DNA of 43,242 nt. Origin: Kiritimatiellia bacterium (GTDB lineage: Bacteria; Verrucomicrobiota; Kiritimatiellia; RFP12; UBA1067). Both the position numbers and the translations under genes were made by a program. Shown piece by piece: positions 3,565-37,860 of the stretch. The notes beneath the pieces are model-generated. The model did no database searches. It had not been told where the DNA came from and saw nothing but the letters and a program-made list of their open reading frames with translations. Location: contig JAFSTA010000035.1 in NCBI GenBank assembly GCA_017450695.1, positions 1 to 43,242 on the forward strand, in the 5' to 3' direction. Within the stretch, counting starts at the first letter, position 1. Every line of letters begins with the position of its first letter.

Positions 3565-4092
3565 CGTCATTCCGCGCCCGGTCATTGAAATACTCAACGA
3601 AACTCCTCATGTTGGACAATTTTTAGAAACTGCGGAATACACGGGCCACACGGAAAAACAGAAGTTTCGACTCCGCCTCTGTTTCGTTGTGTTCTTTGGC
3701 CGGTATCACATTTTGCAAAGTGTGATACCTGCCAACTGGGGAATCCTGGAACAATAGCCACAGGGAGTAGGATTGTCTCACGCAGAGGCAGGGAGAACGT
3801 ACGGGGCGGGGGGCTTCGTCGCGACCGGGGAAGAAGGCGGTAGGGGATTGTTCGCGCCAGCTGAGAAGCTACGACACGCGACAGGCGCGCGTCGCAAAGT
3901 CGGAATGTCGTTGCGCATATCACTTGCCCGCCGTTTCATTTCCTTCCGCAAAGAAGGGAAGGGGGGTGCTTGCCTGTCCTCCGTCGCCTTGCGTAGGAAG
4001 GATCGCGACCGCAATGCTGCATGTCCGGCTTATCCGGCTAAACACGCTTGCCGATAAGTTTGGAATTTGAAGTTTGGAGCGAGACATTCGGG

Positions 4093-4156: not shown

Positions 4157-4358
4157 CCCGGATTCAGTTTTCCCACTGCGTTCTTGGTGCGGGACAAACT
4201 GATCCTCATTTCCATTCCCGCGTGAACGCGGTCGGTCGGCTTACCCCACTTAAAACGCTTCACCTGCCCACTTGGGACCGAAGGTCTATTGCGCGGTATC
4301 CGCTTGTGACTAACTGTTTGCAGTGCAACAGGTCCCTGCGCCAGGGGCACGAATACGC

Positions 4359-10966: not shown

Positions 10967-11982
10967 ACTTTGCGACACCGTTGGCATTCCTGCTTTTGAT
11001 TCCTTGGGCGGTGGCGGCCTGGCGGCTCTACCGCAAGGGAAAGCGCACGGGCGTGCTCTTTTCCGCCACGCGCGATTTGCCCGTACGCACCGCCGGTTGG
11101 CGTGTCGCCCTGACCCACGTGATCCCGCCCCTGTTCTTGGTCGGATCCCTGCTGTTGATTGTGGCCGCCGCCCGTCCGCGTTCGGTGCTGACACGCGAAC
11201 ACAAAAGCATCCAGGCGATCGCCATCGGAATGGTGGTGGACGTTTCGGGGTCGATGGAGGGACTGGACTTGACGCCGAAAGGCGCGTCCTCCTACCAGAC
11301 GCGACTGGAAGTCGTGAAAGAGACGTTCGCGAAGTTCGTCCAGAAACGCCCCGATGACTTGATCGGGCTGGTGACCTTCGGCGGATACGCCTCCACGCGC
11401 TCTCCGTTGACCGCCGACCACGCCGCCTTGCTCCATGTGCTGAAAGGCGTCGAGATCCCGTCGGGACAGTACAACAGTCAGGACGAGACGATGACGGCGA
11501 TCGGCGACGGCCTGGCCACGGCGGTCGCCCGCCTGAAGGACGCGGAACCGAAGACGCGGATCATCATCCTGCTCTCCGACGGCCTTTCGAACGCGGGCAT
11601 CATCACGCCGGAAGAGGCGACGGACGCGGCCGCAAAACTGGGGGTGCGCGTCTATACGATTGGCGTCGGTTCCAACGGACGTACCCCGTTCCGTGTGCGC
11701 GACGCATTCGGGCGCGAGGCGATCTCCTACGCGGACACGCAGTTTGACGAGGCGCAGTTGCGGTCGATCGCGACGCAGACGAACGGCCGCTATTTCGGCG
11801 TCCGAGACAACGACGGTCTGTCGGCGGCGTTGAAGGAGATCGATTCGCTGGAAAAGACGAAGATCGACCGGCAGGTGTACGACCGCTACAACGACCATTT
11901 CGTGCCGTTCCTTTTCGCCGGAGCCGCCTTGATCCTGCTGGCCCTTAGTCTGAACATCCAGTTGATTCGGAGGGTGTTATGA
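10963..11982 (+). CDS. batA: BatA-type VWA-domain membrane protein
   Basis: Membrane-anchored von Willebrand factor A domain protein of the Bat (aerotolerance) type. In the 339 residues there are two N-terminal transmembrane segments (about 6-22 and 48-68), a VWA domain starting with DVSGSMEG (MIDAS DxSxS), a conserved TFGGYA/LSDG pattern, and a C-terminal transmembrane segment (about 310-330). This matches the canonical BatA architecture. The start overlaps the preceding gene and its own stop overlaps batB by four bases, so the three are translationally coupled. The intact MIDAS residues suggest divalent-metal-dependent partner binding. Partners are probably MoxR and the BatB/C fusion next door. 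Confidence 0.92.
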   Translation: MNFATPLAFLLLIPWAVAAWRLYRKGKRTGVLFSATRDLPVRTAGWRVALTHVIPPLFLVGSLLLIVAAARPRSVLTREHKSIQAIAIGMVVDVSGSMEGLDLTPKGASSYQTRLEVVKETFAKFVQKRPDDLIGLVTFGGYASTRSPLTADHAALLHVLKGVEIPSGQYNSQDETMTAIGDGLATAVARLKDAEPKTRIIILLSDGLSNAGIITPEEATDAAAKLGVRVYTIGVGSNGRTPFRVRDAFGREAISYADTQFDEAQLRSIATQTNGRYFGVRDNDGLSAALKEIDSLEKTKIDRQVYDRYNDHFVPFLFAGAALILLALSLNIQLIRRVL

Positions 11983-14594
11983 GATTCGTCTATCCCTGGT
12001 TTTTGTTGTTTCTCTCCGTGCTGCCCTTGGTCGCCTTGCTGTGGCTGTGGCTCTTTCGCCGCTCGCAGCGGCGCCTCTCCTCGTTCATCGCGCCCGCGTT
12101 ACAGTCGAAGCTCATGCCTCCTCGTTCCACCTCGCGCTTCTACCTCCAGTACTGTCTTTCGCTGGCTGGGCTGATGCTGTTGGTCTTTGCCGTCTCCCGT
12201 CCCCAATGGGGACAGAAGGAGGAAAAGGTGCTGACGCGCGGACGGAACGTGGTGATCGCCCTCGATGTCTCCCGCTCCATGCTGGCGACGGATGTGCATC
12301 CGAACCGTCTGGAACGCGCCAAGACCGACATCATGGATTTGATCGACGATCTCGATGGCGACCGCGCCGCGCTGCTGGCATTCCGCAACAAGGGTTCGCT
12401 CGTCTGTCCGTTGACCACGGACTACGCCTTTCTGCGTCAGGCGGTGGATGGCATCTCGCCTGAGTCCGCGCCGCGCGGGGAGACCGATCTCGGTGACGCG
12501 ATCCGCAAATCGCTGGCGGCGTTCGACGCCTCCGAAGACGAGTACAATGCGATCCTGCTGATTTCCGACGGCGGCGACCTGAAGGGCGATGCGCTGAAGG
12601 GGGCGGCGGATGCCGCCGCGCGCAACATTCCGATTTTCACCGTCGGCATCGGCGATGTCGCGGGCGCGACCATTCCCGACGCGAAGGGGCACGGGGTGCA
12701 GCAGTACCAGGGGAAAGCCGTGACGACCAAACTCGAAGACAAGACGCTCTCGGCGATCGCCGCGCAATCCAACGGCCGGTATATCTCGTTGGGTACGGCG
12801 GGAACCGCGCAGACCACGCTCGGCTCGATCTACCAGAAATACCTTCGCCAGATCGCGGCGAAGGAACAGCAGGAGCAGTTGGAAAACCGCTATCAGGAAC
12901 GCTACCAGCTCTTCCTGATTCCCGCGCTCATCCTCTTCCTGCTGGCGGCCTGGTTCAGTCGCGGACGCTTGCTCGGTGCGCGTGTCCGAATGAAGACGGC
13001 GGCAGCCGCCGCTCTTGTTCTCCTCTTCGCTGGATTGGCGGAGGCGCAAGGCACAAACGGAACAGAGACGGCTGAAGCGTCGGCGGGGCAGGGGACGGCA
13101 GAGGCTTCCGCGCCCGCCGCTCCCGAGGAACCGGTTCCGCCGGGACGCGCCGGGGCGCGCGAGGCGCAGGCCATGTTGCGCGCGGGCGACTACACCAACG
13201 CGGCGGCAGCTTTCCTGTCCGCGAAACGCGGGGCGGAAACGGAGGAGGGAGAGGATTACCAGTACAACGCCGCCTACGCCTATTACGCGGCGAGCAATTA
13301 CGAGGCGGCGGCGGAATGTCTCCGCCCCCTGCTGATCTCGAAAAAGAACGGGGCGAAGGCAGGCGAGTTTCTCGGCAAGATCATGCTGGAGTTGCGTGAC
13401 CTCCCCGCCGCGACGGAACCGCAAGAGGAAGCGGGAGAACAACCGCGGCAACCCAAGCAACCGACTGAGACGCCCGAGCAGAAGCGTCTGGAAGCGTTGG
13501 AAGAGGCGGCCGAGGCCTTCCAGCGCGCCCTGCGCGACACGCCGCAGGATGAGCGACGGAACCGGAACTTGACCCGTGCGGTCTCGCCATTGGGAGAGGC
13601 GCGGAAAGCCGCGCACATCGCGCAGGTGATGAAGGCGCACGAGGGGCAGGGACCGCAACAGCTGATTCCGCAGATGCTGCAGGAGCAGCGTGCCATCCTC
13701 ACGGAAGCGCGGCAGGTCTTCACCAACGACGCCGCAACGATGATCCAGCAGTCGGAACAACTGGCAAAGCGCCAGAGCGAGAACGCGGACTTGTGGATAC
13801 CCGTCAAGCAGCAGATCGCCCAAGCCGTCACGAACGAGCAACAGCGTTTCGAGATTCTGCGCCAGATGGAGGCGACAAGTGACAGCATGAAAGGGACCGT
13901 GCTTTCGTTGCAGGATGCGAACCCGGACGCGGCGCTGGATGCCGCCGAGTCGGAACCGGCGCTCTTCCAGTTCTGGAAAGCCGTTGCGGAACCGCGCGGT
14001 CTGCTGGCGGAAGACATCTCCTGCCAGACCAACGCCATCTCCTCGCAGAATCTGCCGTACTACGAAAAGCGTGACGTGCAGGGCGAGGCGTTGCAGTTGA
14101 CGCGACTCTTCCGCGAACGGTTCCCCGACTGGGCGAAGAACTACCAACAGCAAGCCCAGCAGAACACGAACATGCCGCCCTTCACGGCGGAAGACCAGGC
14201 CAAGATCGAGAAACTGGCGGAAGAGGTGGAACGCTTGCAGCAGCCGACGGGCAAGGATATCAACGGCGATCCCGTCGTCTTCACCACGGCGAAAAAAGAG
14301 GCCTTTGAAAAACTGATCGAGATCCTGAAACTGATGCCGCCCGATCCCAACCAGCAGCAACAGCAGCAGAATCAGCAACAGCAACAACAACCGCAGCAAC
14401 AACACGAACAGCAGCAACAGCAAGAGCAGAAACAGGAACAGAAACAGGAAAAACAAGAACAGCAGCGTCCGCAAGAACCCAAAGACGTGCAGGAACTCCT
14501 GCGCCGCGCCCTCGAACGCGAAAAGGAACACGAGGAAGAAAAGAAAGAACGCATGCGCCAAGCCCCCGCCCTCCCCAGCGAAAAGGATTGGTAG
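11979..14594 (+). CDS. batB: BatB-BatC fusion: VWA domain plus TPR and Gln-rich tail
   Basis: Large 871-residue protein that joins two usually separate Bat proteins. Residues 1-330 are BatB-like: two transmembrane segments, a VWA domain with DVSRSM (MIDAS), and a third membrane segment near 308-325. A second hydrophobic stretch near 337-352 (a buried signal-like segment) precedes the BatC-like part, which has TPR-like helical repeats (about 385-450), a long helical region, a Gln-rich low-complexity tract (about 788-830) and a charged C-terminus ending EKDW, typical of BatC. The join suggests BatC is tethered in the periplasm. It is the last gene of the operon; its stop abuts a repeat block that begins within ten bases. 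Confidence 0.88.
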   Translation: MRFVYPWFLLFLSVLPLVALLWLWLFRRSQRRLSSFIAPALQSKLMPPRSTSRFYLQYCLSLAGLMLLVFAVSRPQWGQKEEKVLTRGRNVVIALDVSRSMLATDVHPNRLERAKTDIMDLIDDLDGDRAALLAFRNKGSLVCPLTTDYAFLRQAVDGISPESAPRGETDLGDAIRKSLAAFDASEDEYNAILLISDGGDLKGDALKGAADAAARNIPIFTVGIGDVAGATIPDAKGHGVQQYQGKAVTTKLEDKTLSAIAAQSNGRYISLGTAGTAQTTLGSIYQKYLRQIAAKEQQEQLENRYQERYQLFLIPALILFLLAAWFSRGRLLGARVRMKTAAAAALVLLFAGLAEAQGTNGTETAEASAGQGTAEASAPAAPEEPVPPGRAGAREAQAMLRAGDYTNAAAAFLSAKRGAETEEGEDYQYNAAYAYYAASNYEAAAECLRPLLISKKNGAKAGEFLGKIMLELRDLPAATEPQEEAGEQPRQPKQPTETPEQKRLEALEEAAEAFQRALRDTPQDERRNRNLTRAVSPLGEARKAAHIAQVMKAHEGQGPQQLIPQMLQEQRAILTEARQVFTNDAATMIQQSEQLAKRQSENADLWIPVKQQIAQAVTNEQQRFEILRQMEATSDSMKGTVLSLQDANPDAALDAAESEPALFQFWKAVAEPRGLLAEDISCQTNAISSQNLPYYEKRDVQGEALQLTRLFRERFPDWAKNYQQQAQQNTNMPPFTAEDQAKIEKLAEEVERLQQPTGKDINGDPVVFTTAKKEAFEKLIEILKLMPPDPNQQQQQQNQQQQQQPQQQHEQQQQQEQKQEQKQEKQEQQRPQEPKDVQELLRRALEREKEHEEEKKERMRQAPALPSEKDW

Positions 14595-14599
14595 GGGGC

Positions 14600-15007
14600 G
14601 GCTAATGCCGCCAGCTGAAAAGCTGAGAAGCGTGTTGCGTCCGCTGCGTAGCGACGGTGCCCTCGCCGTCAGGTTTACTTGAATGTGCTTCTCCGCTTCC
14701 TTGCCACAAATCATTGTTCCTTTCGGTACTGGGAGTTTGGGAGGCTTGGCGAGCTACCGCCCCTGTCTCCAAAACTCCGAAACTCCCCGTAGCGAAAGCA
14801 ATTTACCCTGCCTATCAGTCGGCAGAATAGCCCGCCCCCGCTTTTTGTACGTGAATGTACATGAGTGTAAGTTTATCTCGCGCAAAGTCCGCAAAGTTCG
14901 CTTAAATGCCCTTACGGGGCTAAGTCACGTAGGCGGCATCAGCCGTCACGTAGGGCCGAAGGCCCATTTAGCGGCATAGCCGCAGGAGTGCCGCTTCCCC
15001 GAATGTC
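14600..15007. repeat. Dispersed mosaic repeat block, copy A
   Basis: Fills the gap between the convergent batB/C and GH95-like genes. It contains GCCAGCTGAAAAGCTGAGAAG, a hairpin GACGGTG-CCCT-CGCCGTC (14653-14670), and a long imperfect inverted repeat whose arms GGGAGTTTGGGAG and CTCCGAAACTCCC lie at about 14727-14785. A TCTCGCGCAAAG module follows, then an array of mini-hairpins: 14908-14920, 14932-14947, GGGCC-GAA-GGCCC (14953-14965) and GCGGC-ATA-GCCGC-like (14971-14983). It ends with GGAGTGCCGCTTCCCCGAATG. The same order is found at 37425-37850 (copy B). Confidence 0.85.
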
Positions 15008-23590: not shown

Positions 23591-24682
23591 ATGATGACAA
23601 GAAAAACATTCGTTCTGAATCTGCTGGCTTGTTCGCTGGCCGTGACATGCAACTGCTTTTTCGCCGGGGCCGCTCCGCTGGCCGTTACGGAGAACTACGA
23701 CTGGCGCGACGGGAAGGACCTGGCTCTGGAAGGACGCGGGTTCCCGCAGACGACGCTCTACTCGCGGCTTCCCGAAAAGTGGAAAGGGGTGATTCCCGCC
23801 GGCGTTTGGCGTCTGTCGCACACGTCGATCGACATCAACGCGCGCTTCGTGACCGATTCGAACGAGGTTGTCGTGCGTTGGGAGGTTCCGAAGGGATACC
23901 GTCCGCATCCGCAGATCACCTTGAACGGGACGCAGGGGGTGGACGTGTACAAGCGGACGGCGGACGGCGCCTGGGAGCATTGCTTGGTGGGCGCGCCGAA
24001 CACCGAGACGGGGCAGGGGGAGTTGTGCGTGCCGTGGACGCCCGGAGACGAGTGTCTCGTGTACCTGCCGATGCGCGTCATGCCGCTCTCCTTTTCGATC
24101 GGCGTGAAAAAGGGGAGTCGTTTCACTCCCGCCAAGCCGCACCGTCTCGCCAAGCCCGTGGTGCATTATGGTACCTCCATCGTACACGGCGGACGCGCCT
24201 CGCGTCCCGGCATGACGTTCACGTCCATCATGGCGCGCCGGTTGGACGTGGAGTTGATCAACCTCGGTTTCCCCGGCAGGGGACGGATGGAGTTGCCGAT
24301 GGCGGACGTCCTGGCGGAGATTGACGCGGCGCTCTACATTGTCGATTGCGACTGGAATATGTCGCCAGACCTCCAGAAGGAGAACTACGAGCCGTTCGTG
24401 CGCAAGCTCAAGGAGCGGCGCCCCGACACGCCGATCCTGCTCTGCGGAGGCTGCACGGAAAAGCGTGTGCCGCGTCCGCAGGAGGTTTTCGCCAAGGGCG
24501 TCTATGACAAGCTCAAGGCCGAAGATCCCGCGAAGTGGGCAAACCTCCACTTCCTTACCGGCGTCAGCCAGCTTCCCGATGACTCGGACTGCACCACGGA
24601 TCATTGCCACCCGAACGACTACGGCTTCATGCAGATGGGGCCGGTCTATGCGCAAGCCGTGCGGAAAATTCTCGGACTGTAA
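23591..24682 (+). CDS. SGNH/GDSL-type secreted esterase with N-terminal GxDLY-like domain
   Basis: Probable carbohydrate esterase removing acyl groups from glycans so that the neighbouring glycosidases can act. The 363-residue product has a signal peptide (about 1-27), an N-terminal beta-sandwich of the GxDLY type (YSRLPEK, NARFVTDS), and an SGNH hydrolase domain. The domain shows block I YGTSI with Ser196, the glycine/asparagine blocks INLGFPG-x-GRME and DCDWNM, and the terminal D-x-x-H (Asp337, His340). The architecture matches secreted acetylesterase-like families. It is divergent from the GntR-type gene and probably in the same regulon. Substrate is inferred, not shown. Confidence 0.85.
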   Translation: MMTRKTFVLNLLACSLAVTCNCFFAGAAPLAVTENYDWRDGKDLALEGRGFPQTTLYSRLPEKWKGVIPAGVWRLSHTSIDINARFVTDSNEVVVRWEVPKGYRPHPQITLNGTQGVDVYKRTADGAWEHCLVGAPNTETGQGELCVPWTPGDECLVYLPMRVMPLSFSIGVKKGSRFTPAKPHRLAKPVVHYGTSIVHGGRASRPGMTFTSIMARRLDVELINLGFPGRGRMELPMADVLAEIDAALYIVDCDWNMSPDLQKENYEPFVRKLKERRPDTPILLCGGCTEKRVPRPQEVFAKGVYDKLKAEDPAKWANLHFLTGVSQLPDDSDCTTDHCHPNDYGFMQMGPVYAQAVRKILGL

Positions 24683-24690
24683 CTTGCCCA

Positions 24691-24781
24691 TAAGTTCGCG
24701 GCATTGAGTCCCGCAGGGACACGTGGCCACGAAGTGGCACTTAGCCATGCAACACATGATGGCGGCGTCAGCCGTCATCAC
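24691..24781. repeat. Mini-hairpin array between convergent genes
   Basis: Consecutive small inverted repeats with 3-nt loops: GTCCC-GCA-GGGAC (24708-24720), GCCAC-GAA-GTGGC (24726-24738), and an imperfect GATGGCGG/CCGTCATC stem (24758-24779), joined by ACGTG, ACTTAG-type linkers. The last unit resembles the GGCGGCATCAGCCGTC units at 14932 and 37783. It overlaps the 3' end of the next minus-strand gene and supplies its stop codon. It may act as a bidirectional terminator. Confidence 0.7.
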
Positions 24782-25793
24782 GCGACCAGAGGAAGGTCAG
24801 TTCGTGTTTGTTGTAGTTCAGGTGAACGATGCGGCTGTTGGGGAGTTCAGTGAATTGCGCGAGCTGCCGCCAATCGACGGTTCCCTGCAACTTGATGGTG
24901 CAGATCATCGTGCGCGTCAGCCCGCTGTCGATCCAGGAACGTATCCACGGAAGCAGACGTTCCGGGTAGCAGATGACATCGCTGACTACCCAGTCGAACG
25001 CGCCCAGCTCTTGCGGCGCGAGGGTGAACGCATCGTGCATCCGAAAGGTGACATGGCGGTCGTTCATCAGCTTCGGTACGAGTTCCGTGCGATCGACCGC
25101 GAAGACATCCGCGCCGAGTTCGCGCAGCACCCATGTCCATCCTCCCGGACACGCGCCCGCGTCGAAACAGCGTTGCCCTTCCTGCGGGAAGGGAACGCGG
25201 AAGAAGTGGTGCGCCAGCGTCAGGCTTTCTTGGAGTTTGAGATAAGCACGGCTGGGCGGGTTCTTGTGGTCCTCGCGGAACTCGACTTTGCCCTGCGGCA
25301 GATCGCTGGAGGTCGTTGCGCTCGCCAGCATGGCGTTGCTGTCCAGCAGGGTGAAGATCCCCATCGGCGTGGCCGGGAATTCGAACGGGAAGATTCGGGC
25401 TTTCGTGGAAAGGTAGGGGAGTTTTTCTTGGATGTATTCGGCCCGCCGCCATCCCTGATACTGGTAGCTCGCCCAGTTGCGCTGGATTCCTTGCAGCGTC
25501 TTGGCGGCATCTCCGATGGAGTCGAATCGGGCATGGAACGGACGGAGCAACGCGGTTCGTGCCCAGTACGGCGCCTCGACGGGATTGTCCGTCTGGGGAA
25601 ACTCCGGACAGTACAGGATGTCCCCGTACCAGTTTGTCCGGCTCGGATCAAACGAGGCGTGGGGCGATCCTTCGTGCGGTTGCGCAGGGGATGCCAGTCC
25701 GAAGCGGCCGTGCAGTTCCTCCCGCAACCGTTCCGCCATTTCGGGAAAAGCGAGAAACGCGCATCCGGGCAAAGTCTCTGTGTTGTGCGACAT
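24768..25793 (-). CDS. RlmM-like FtsJ-family rRNA 2'-O-methyltransferase
   Basis: Predicted SAM-dependent ribose methyltransferase of 23S rRNA (RlmM/FtsJ group), cytoplasmic. The 341-residue product has an N-terminal THUMP-like region and a Rossmann methyltransferase domain with motif I FDAGACPGGWTW, then FAVDRTEL, the DWVVSDV segment and a later lysine (TIKLQG), consistent with the K-D-K catalytic set. The start at 25793 is preferred because the upstream extension runs through the preceding gene. It begins 8 bp after the PP-loop gene stop, so the two are co-transcribed. Its last four codons and stop lie within a dispersed hairpin unit, indicating that the C-terminus was reshaped by a repeat. 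Confidence 0.82.
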   Translation of the reverse strand: MSHNTETLPGCAFLAFPEMAERLREELHGRFGLASPAQPHEGSPHASFDPSRTNWYGDILYCPEFPQTDNPVEAPYWARTALLRPFHARFDSIGDAAKTLQGIQRNWASYQYQGWRRAEYIQEKLPYLSTKARIFPFEFPATPMGIFTLLDSNAMLASATTSSDLPQGKVEFREDHKNPPSRAYLKLQESLTLAHHFFRVPFPQEGQRCFDAGACPGGWTWVLRELGADVFAVDRTELVPKLMNDRHVTFRMHDAFTLAPQELGAFDWVVSDVICYPERLLPWIRSWIDSGLTRTMICTIKLQGTVDWRQLAQFTELPNSRIVHLNYNKHELTFLWSRDDG

Positions 25794-29373: not shown

Positions 29374-29389
29374 GGGGTGGGGACGCAGG

Positions 29390-29711
29390 CAAGTGGTGGC
29401 TGCGCCGCCTAAGTGGCTCTGCTGGCCTAAATGGGGCTGCGCCCCTAAGTTGACTTGGATAGGAAGGGGCGCTTCGCGCCAGCTGAGAAGCTGAGAGGCT
29501 GAAAGGCTGAGAAGCTGAAATGGGGAAGCTGAGAAGCGGAGGGCACTACGCGCCAGCGGAGAAGCTGAGAGGCGGGGAAGCTGAGATGTTCGTGTCGGAA
29601 TGGCGCTGCGCATGTCGCATGTCGCATGTCGCGTGTCGCACGTCTCAAGCAGATGGGGAGGGTACACTTGCCTGTCCTCCGTAGCCTTGCGCAGGAAGGA
29701 TCGCGACCGCA
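29390..29711. repeat. Mosaic repeat block between convergent genes
   Basis: Mini-hairpins GGTGGC-TGC-GCCGCC (29395-29409) and GGGGC-TGC-GCCCC (29433-29445) are joined by TAAGTGG/TAAATGG linkers. The next part is a roughly 9-bp tandem repeat (AGCTGAGAA, AGCTGAAAG and variants) from about 29470 to 29590, a GTCGCATGT triplication (29616-29636), and the AGGAAGGATCGCGACCGC phrase shared with 3992-4012. The first 75 bases are nearly identical to 37302-37376. No gene is supported between 29374 and 29727. Confidence 0.85.
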
Positions 29712-37239: not shown

Positions 37240-37860
37240 AGGGGCGGCGCTTCGCGCCAGCTGAGAAGCGGGGAAGCTGAAAGGCTGAAAAGCTGAGAAG
37301 CAAGTGGCGGCTGCGCCGCCTAAGTGGCCCTGCGGGTCTAAATGGTGCTGCGCTCCTAAGTTGACTTGGCTAGGAAGGGGCACTTCGCGCTAGCTGAGAA
37401 GCTGAAAAGCTGAGAAACAAGAGAAGCGTGTCGCGTCCACTGCGTAGCGACGGCGCCCTCGCCGTCGGCTTCCCCGAATGAGCTTCTTAGCTTCCATGCC
37501 ACAAATCAATGTTCCGTTCGGTACTGGGAGTTTGGGAGGCTTGGAGAACTGCCGTCCCTATCTCCAAAACTCCGAGACTCCCCGTAACGAGAGCATTTTA
37601 CCCTGCCTGTCAGTCGGCAGGATATATGCCGTACCCGCTTTTTGTGCGGGAATGTACATGAGGGTAAGTATGTCTCACGCAGAGTGGCGGAGAACGCAGA
37701 GAGGAACAGGTCGCCAAATCGGGGAAGCAACACTCTTGCCGCTTCCCCGAATGGCGTAGCCCTTGCGGTGCTAAGTCACTCAGGCGGTGCCAGCCGTCAT
37801 TTAGGGCGTAGCCCACTTAGGACCGAAGGTCCATTTAGCGGCATAGCGGCGGTTTTGCCA
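37240..37860. repeat. Mosaic repeat block, copy B plus mini-hairpin array
   Basis: Starts with GGCGCTTCGCGCCAGCTGAG and the 9-bp tandem repeat, then a mini-hairpin run shared with 29395-29445 (GGCGGC-TGC-GCCGCC at 37306-37320). From 37425 it parallels copy A at 14626: GACGGCG-CCCT-CGCCGTC (37449-37466), the GGGAGTTTGGGAG / CTCCGAGACTCCC arms, the TCTCACGCAGAG module, an imperfect GGGGAAGC/GCTTCCCC stem (37721-37748), and hairpins at 37783-37798, GGGC-GTA-GCCC (37804-37814) and GGACC-GAA-GGTCC (37820-37832). Compared with copy A there is one extra hairpin unit. Confidence 0.88.

Follow-up and report, generated by a model that had tools for sequence, protein, structure and literature searches.

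The window analysed here, a stretch of 43,242 nucleotides (nt), corresponds to contig C203 of a genome of 5.03 Mb in 287 contigs (G000) and carries arrays of miniature hairpins joined by short constant linkers, which are the subject of this work. The host is probably a rumen Kiritimatiellae-type bacterium; among named genomes, the array-bearing records detected by the linker pattern are two rumen metagenome-assembled genomes, labelled Kiritimatiellae and Lentisphaerae. The initial annotation of the window placed mini-hairpins at six positions and all six hold them. Most of these arrays represent one of two recurring elements, termed A and B; decayed or irregular arrays occupy the other two places, 4275 and 24708.

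Element A is a conserved three-hairpin element in which TAAGT precedes the hairpin GGCGGC-n-GCCGCC, a second TAAGT precedes GGCCC-tgc-GGGCC, TAAAT precedes GGGGC-n-GCCCC and the centre reads TAAGTTGACTTG. Its two window copies, both on the forward strand at 29384–29459 (alignment A1) and 37295–37370, cover the annotated places 29395–29445 and 37306–37350 and are 90% identical over 114 nt. They score 85.6 bits (E 4.3e-22) and 87.4 bits (E 1.2e-22), respectively, with the covariance model R1, which was built from 54 copies and includes both in its training set. Element B comprises four to five hairpins, chiefly in the ACTTA orientation. Copy A of element B (14902–14983, reverse strand, which is the TAAGT strand of its larger arm; alignment A2) displays four hairpins at 14908–14920, 14932–14947, 14953–14965 and 14971–14983, with the centre TAAGT-C-ACGTA at 14921–14931; the units within 14908–14983 are GCCCT-tac-GGGGC, GGCGGC-atca-GCCGTC, GGGCC-gaa-GGCCC and GCGGC-ata-GCCGC. 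Copy B (37753–37850, reverse strand) includes GGGC-gta-GCCC at 37804–37814 and GGACC-gaa-GGTCC at 37820–37832. Alignment A2 reveals an extra 16-nt unit in copy B, in agreement with the annotated one-unit difference between the two copies, and places GGGCC/GGCCC and GGACC/GGTCC at a homologous unit, so that the compensatory change claimed for this pair is a true double change.

The two remaining arrays of the window are less regular. The place at 4275 holds a decayed two-unit remnant (4275–4303, reverse strand, which is the TAAGT strand; GGACC-gaa-GGTCT, ATTGC, GCGG-tat-CCGC), 61% similar to the repeat at 14947–14992. The irregular array at 24708–24777 (reverse strand; GTCCC-gca-GGGAC, GCCAC-gaa-GTGGC, ACTTA, TGGCGGC-gtca-GCCGTCA) sits between the converging genes 23591–24682 (forward) and 24768–25739 (reverse). 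The fold energy of single copies is exceptional only at 14900–14990, around copy A of element B (z ~-4), and at 24695–24790, around the irregular array (z -2.9). By the same single-copy energy the remaining copies of the window have no advantage over shuffles, and thus the signal resides in the regularity and copy number of the arrays.

Each unit consists of the linker TAAGT (ACTTA on the other strand) and a G+C stem of 4–6 bp, whose middle pairs vary and stay complementary. Units collected through their linkers only, with pairing ignored, follow the pattern TAAGT G NNN C TNC G N'N'N' C, where the outer G-C pair, the inner C-G pair and the loop are near-constant and the three middle pairs are variable. 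On the ACTTA strand the loop sequence is GCA, GAA or GTA, or has four bases (GCCA, GCAA or GTCA), such that the apex is nearly always C-GNA-G or C-GNNA-G; C-G closure is found in 229/248 units, and in the genus g13 the units with a three-base loop all (92/92) have GNA closed by C-G. The C-GNA-G class makes up ~1% per orientation of the other hairpins in the window's genome. Loops had been annotated as mostly 3 nt and spacing as about 18–21 nt; 3-nt loops are present together with 4-nt loops, and the measured period is wider, from 16 to 22 nt. Loops of the C-GNA-G type, a motif employed in published work, are known to make DNA mini-hairpins extraordinarily stable, which suggests that single-stranded DNA rather than RNA is the form that matters. 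The full element is composed of a TAAGT arm, a centre in which TAAGT and ACTTA are separated by 1–2 nt (e.g. TAAGT-aa-ACTTA) and an ACTTA arm. In g13 arrays one arm is near-fixed (GTCGC, GGGGC) and the other takes permuted units from the small set GGCCC, GCGCC, GCTGC and GCCCC. Long-range pairing of the TAAGT arm with the ACTTA arm is predicted in one g13 array.

Pairing is retained while the stem sequence drifts, as the initial annotation had proposed. In distinct units defined as linker-13-linker, 81%, 82% and 94% of stem positions are Watson-Crick in three lineages, compared with 53–66% in the arm-swapped control. The excess of compensatory changes is also apparent within element A, whose 54 copies contain 12 double-changed cells versus 3.0 in shuffles (0/500 shuffles reach this number; the relatedness of the copies is uncontrolled). 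A single template-switching event can yield a perfect palindrome (discussed in PMC6649704), and thus this covariation is not in itself proof of selection on structure.

The abundance of the arrays was assessed in 1.01 Mb of the window's own genome, about a fifth of the total and partly enriched for linker sites, on which the gene-context statistics given below are also based. Hairpin arrays with at least three perfect units number 33 in this sample versus 7 in a Markov-1 control, their dominant linkers being TAAGT, ACTTA, TAAAT and ATTTA, while linker-flanked hairpin units number 211 versus 0 in shuffles. In the whole, unselected genome, the scan for CTAAGTG-N9..15-CTAAGTG identifies 94 exact tandem linker pairs, versus 0 with the reversed pattern as control. 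The genome-wide search with R1, a check suggested at annotation, reveals element A as dispersed and multi-copy, with at least 143 matches in G000 and at least 106 in the sister species G001 (possible lower bounds, given that 150 candidates per genome were scored) and 8 in G059; no R1 match is found in the congeneric G002 and G003 or in 16 other relatives. The mean column identity of alignment A1 over its 54 copies is 84%. Arrays with other stems are present in one sister species and in some species of two other genera, most relatives being devoid of them. Absence of the units from the rest of the clade had been named as evidence against the initial proposal; as arrays occur in several of its genomes and vary in unit number, this is not what is observed. 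Within one genome, multi-unit elements located in unrelated genes and spacers share the terminal sequence GATTAAGTCGCCGCC...GGCGGCTTTAAGT.

Two groups of candidate matches were discarded. Matches of the phylum-wide scan in G274 and G352 are due to chance or to a CTAAGTG heptamer microsatellite; contig C151 of G352 (L156) carries a long CTAAGTG heptamer tandem at its end. GATTCAC, considered as a further linker from reversed-control matches in G055, G022, G063 and G077, belongs to a different 11-nt repeat plus a heptamer repeat. GATTCAC arrays have 4-nt spacers and repeat every 11 nt; some form inverted pairs that face each other (L107 and L111 in G055; L106 and L110 in G022).

The location of the arrays relative to genes, which were called with a home-made, simple codon-model gene finder, differs between genera. 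None of the 79 elements sampled in the window's genome and none of the 37 in the sister species overlap a predicted gene. In the former, convergent gaps are modestly enriched (18/72 elements, compared with 44/296 large gaps; p ~0.008), divergent gaps contain 14/72 elements, and the orientation of arrays relative to genes shows no bias (15 versus 10 in tandem contexts, p = 0.42). All arrays detected in genus g13 are contained within genes, where they keep the reading frame and introduce no stop codon; this statement covers the loci collected by linker pattern or array peptide, a search that decayed intergenic copies could escape. The open frame is supported by the gene finder for 13 of 17 loci and by translation or an open-frame listing for the rest. 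The g13 arrays are read as CTA AGT / CTT AGN, and their two-base centre holds both arms in that frame. Units of 18 nt, corresponding to six codons, account for 85/86 in g13 versus 68/211 in the window's genome (p ~2e-30). The g13 host genes encode the xylulokinase XylB, a carboxynorspermidine-decarboxylase-like enzyme, pyruvate-formate-lyase-like glycyl radical enzymes and large HZS-alpha/FGE-sulfatase proteins. With its insert XylB still scores above the NCBIfam cut-off, and the decarboxylase falls just under its own. The array peptide predicted in the glycyl radical or HZS-alpha/FGE proteins is exemplified by LSAPSGLSGPSGLS, and long open frames with array peptide are present in two further g13 genomes, G445 and G447. 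In-frame arrays also occur in at least two genomes of another family (G059 and G082); the xylulokinase of G059 holds a shorter array at the same site as in G036, with two start units nearly alike. The best match to the array peptide in G000 was rejected, as it falls within a spacer and its frame has a strongly negative coding score.

Orthologous sites without arrays, or with other contents, were found for both enzymes. Xylulokinase orthologues from G056, G041, G051, G055 and G004 (75–82% identical) display a short variable stretch and no array at the corresponding position, and decarboxylase orthologues (68–82% identical) from G028, G055, G015, G045 and G048 also lack it; the decarboxylase site holds a shorter array in G051 and an unrelated GGTGAAAGGTGAA repeat in G041. 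A paralogue within G036 has an empty site where its relatives contain arrays of differing unit number and order. Likewise, at one orthologous spacer with a conserved flank the array of G000 is replaced by other filler in G001. The array region of the decarboxylase (residues 308–361) is modelled between two strands with low confidence (predicted local distance difference test, pLDDT, ~30). For xylulokinase the AlphaFold model has a mean pLDDT of 36 (six sequences), and its loop was placed only through alignment to solved kinases. The protein loops that serve as array sites hold other short repeats elsewhere (GGTGAAAGGTGAA, CAAATGGAAAATGTAAAG and CACGAACCGCGAACC; L191, L206, L207, L208 and L209), and such variable loops look like general landing places for spacer-type repeats. 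The decarboxylase also carries a second, unrelated in-frame insert at codons ~150–181 (L204 in G036, L206 in G041); it is palindromic in G041, where it reads GGGAGGGTCGCAGTTTACTGCGACCGATGATTCGGACGCAATAAATTGCGTCCCTCCC, and its peptide is found again in G036, G041 and G051, in other frames.

These comparisons show that the arrays are dispersed and multi-copy, that some orthologous sites carry them and others lack them or hold a different sequence, that their units are gained, lost and permuted while the stems stay complementary, and that they are confined to spacers or to protein regions that tolerate them. They are probably non-autonomous, palindromic and largely selfish DNA elements that work like the Rickettsia palindromic elements. 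When exposed as single-stranded DNA, the units would fold into very stable C-GNA-G hairpins, which may provoke slippage and template switching such that whole units are added or removed and a stem becomes perfectly complementary in a single event. New sites could be seeded through some single-strand transposase or recombination route. The elements would persist only where they are harmless, either between genes or within disordered loops of proteins; within such loops they would survive only as 18-nt units in the stop-free frame. Several observations weigh against this interpretation. We infer movement from the comparison of genomes, and no candidate mobilising enzyme tracks the arrays among 22 relatives. 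No clear target-site duplication is readable at the insertion points, since these are already variable loops. Paralogous HZS-alpha/FGE genes have two sites in common, and thus the independent insertions into genes are fewer than the loci; some in-gene sites found in more than one genome, such as the xylulokinase array common to G036 and G059, may reflect inheritance or gene transfer and not a new insertion.

Transposition by a dedicated enzyme family offers a different account, in which the arrays are repetitive extragenic palindrome (REP) or bacterial interspersed mosaic element (BIME)-like sequences moved by an IS200/IS605-type single-strand transposase (Y1, TnpA-REP). The units would then be small perfect palindromes cleaved at a CT dinucleotide and preceded, on the ACTTA strand, by the conserved 5' tetranucleotide (G/T)TAG. 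They do share with REP/BIMEs a small palindromic unit, a conserved motif on its 5' side, a large number of copies and facing orientations, and in the window's genome they are extragenic. Group-3 REPs extend down to a 5-bp stem with a 4-nt loop, or to 3-nt-loop perfect palindromes right after GTAG, and known cleavage occurs at CT or CA (PMC8266576); in the present arrays CTTAG, or sometimes CGTAG, precedes the units, and Y1 genes are present. However, the GTAG rule does not hold, as the linker is mostly ACTTAG, with CGTAG in the minority, so that the tetranucleotide is mostly TTAG and its G lies within the stem. Moreover, Y1 genes occur in 22/22 relatives tested, with or without arrays and without correlation, none of those inspected is adjoined by an array and no linked tnpA-REP was found. 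The many tandem units and the in-gene copies of relatives, with the in-frame placement in g13, are also unlike REPs, and this origin is considered rather unlikely. A more far-reaching proposal, to which we give somewhat less credence still, is a structure-defined DNA replicator: the shape, a five-base linker plus a C-GNA-G mini-hairpin, would be what is copied and recognised, the stems being rewritten freely, and a dedicated enzyme would add, delete and shuffle hairpin units, both in spacers and, with the frame kept, within genes.

Selection could instead maintain pairing if the arrays were structured regulatory DNA or RNA, acting as transcript ends, mRNA stabilisers or protein-binding sites. 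Persistence of pairing despite stem variation and the modest excess in convergent gaps agree with such a role, but the orientation to genes is not fixed, arrays are frequent in divergent gaps, their distribution between sister species is patchy and g13 arrays lie in the middle of enzyme genes. T-tracts are absent apart from one marginal T-run hairpin at 37306–37320, against 1.0 expected there, and none is found in the 14.9 kb array; the lack of T-tracts and of orientation bias rules out intrinsic terminators, and regulation in general is improbable. Even less probable is purely local, microsatellite-like expansion, that is, slippage in place with no movement between loci. Unit number does vary at one site, and other short tandem repeats fill the array loops in other genomes, but the same multi-unit elements, with a shared terminal sequence, are found repeatedly within a single genome, in spacers and in genes unrelated to one another, and neither this nor the copy number and column identity of element A conforms to growth in place.

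The closest parallel to the favoured interpretation, in which the arrays are selfish palindromic DNA, is provided by the Rickettsia palindromic elements (RPEs; Ogata 2000, reviewed in PMC10969869). Both are dispersed, hairpin-forming palindromic repeats located in frame in unrelated housekeeping genes and also outside genes, with the peptide in a tolerated region. Here, in-frame insertion is observed in g13, G059 and G082 and not in the window's genome, and orthologues lack the array at the matching position. In contrast to RPEs, which are single palindromes of ~150 bp with a family-wide consensus, these are strings of 13-nt hairpins (18-nt pitch in genes) with a fixed linker, freely varying stems and permuted units, in a Kiritimatiellae-type host. 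Thus, the arrays are not assigned to the RPEs although they appear RPE-like in their working. PARCELs are also tandem palindromic units within coding sequences with a patchy distribution, but their period is 25 residues (75 nt) rather than 6 residues (18 nt), and they match DUF285/TIGR02167, for which array-bearing proteins give no match in Pfam or NCBIfam. Short palindromes fill spacers in Volvox organelle genomes (PMC2670323), and the mitochondria of Nematomorpha carry coding palindromes whose perfect pairing is possibly kept by template switching (PMC6649704); these are organelle genomes in which no fixed-linker mini-hairpin array is described, and the nematomorph repeats are long single palindromes. 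A CRISPR array does not fit, as the linker measures 5 nt and the 'spacers' are palindromes drawn from a limited set; no search for cas genes was made. Rfam 15 contains no family matched above its gathering score.

None of the papers searched describes this exact format, and searches for repeats of Lentisphaerae or Kiritimatiellae yielded nothing relevant. Within that literature the initial view that no element of this format had been described stands for the format itself, while the kind of element is known from Rickettsia (PMC10969869). The further suggestion of an undescribed nucleic-acid system with a function was not sustained, in view of the missing orientation rule, the single marginal terminator, the lack of an Rfam match and of a tracking enzyme. 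Palindromic selfish DNA in frame is known chiefly from Rickettsia; here it is modular and occurs in gut bacteria of another phylum. The filled, empty and differently filled versions of a gene across related species form a natural series for the origin of new protein segments from selfish DNA. Coding selection on a mobile repeat becomes measurable through the comparison of an intergenic-only genus with an in-gene genus, the strict 18-nt unit being found only in the latter.

The spacers of the window are mosaics of several repeat families. Tandem 8-mers of the GCTGAGAA type adjoin element A (29468–29592, 37246–37429 and 14600–14650), and AAGCGGCAGGAGTGCCGCTTCCCCGAAT-like hairpins are located at 4088, 14978, 31747 and 37719. 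A repeated intergenic module, with no strand assigned, precedes copy A of element B (14672–14888) and has a second occurrence at 37467–37685 (82–87% identical). Near the end of the gene for a VWA-type protein (11979–14594) lies a glutamine-rich CAG/CAA repeat (14342–14464). Elsewhere in the same genome, a run of TCTAG/CTAGA mini-palindromes is found at L047:16466–16527.
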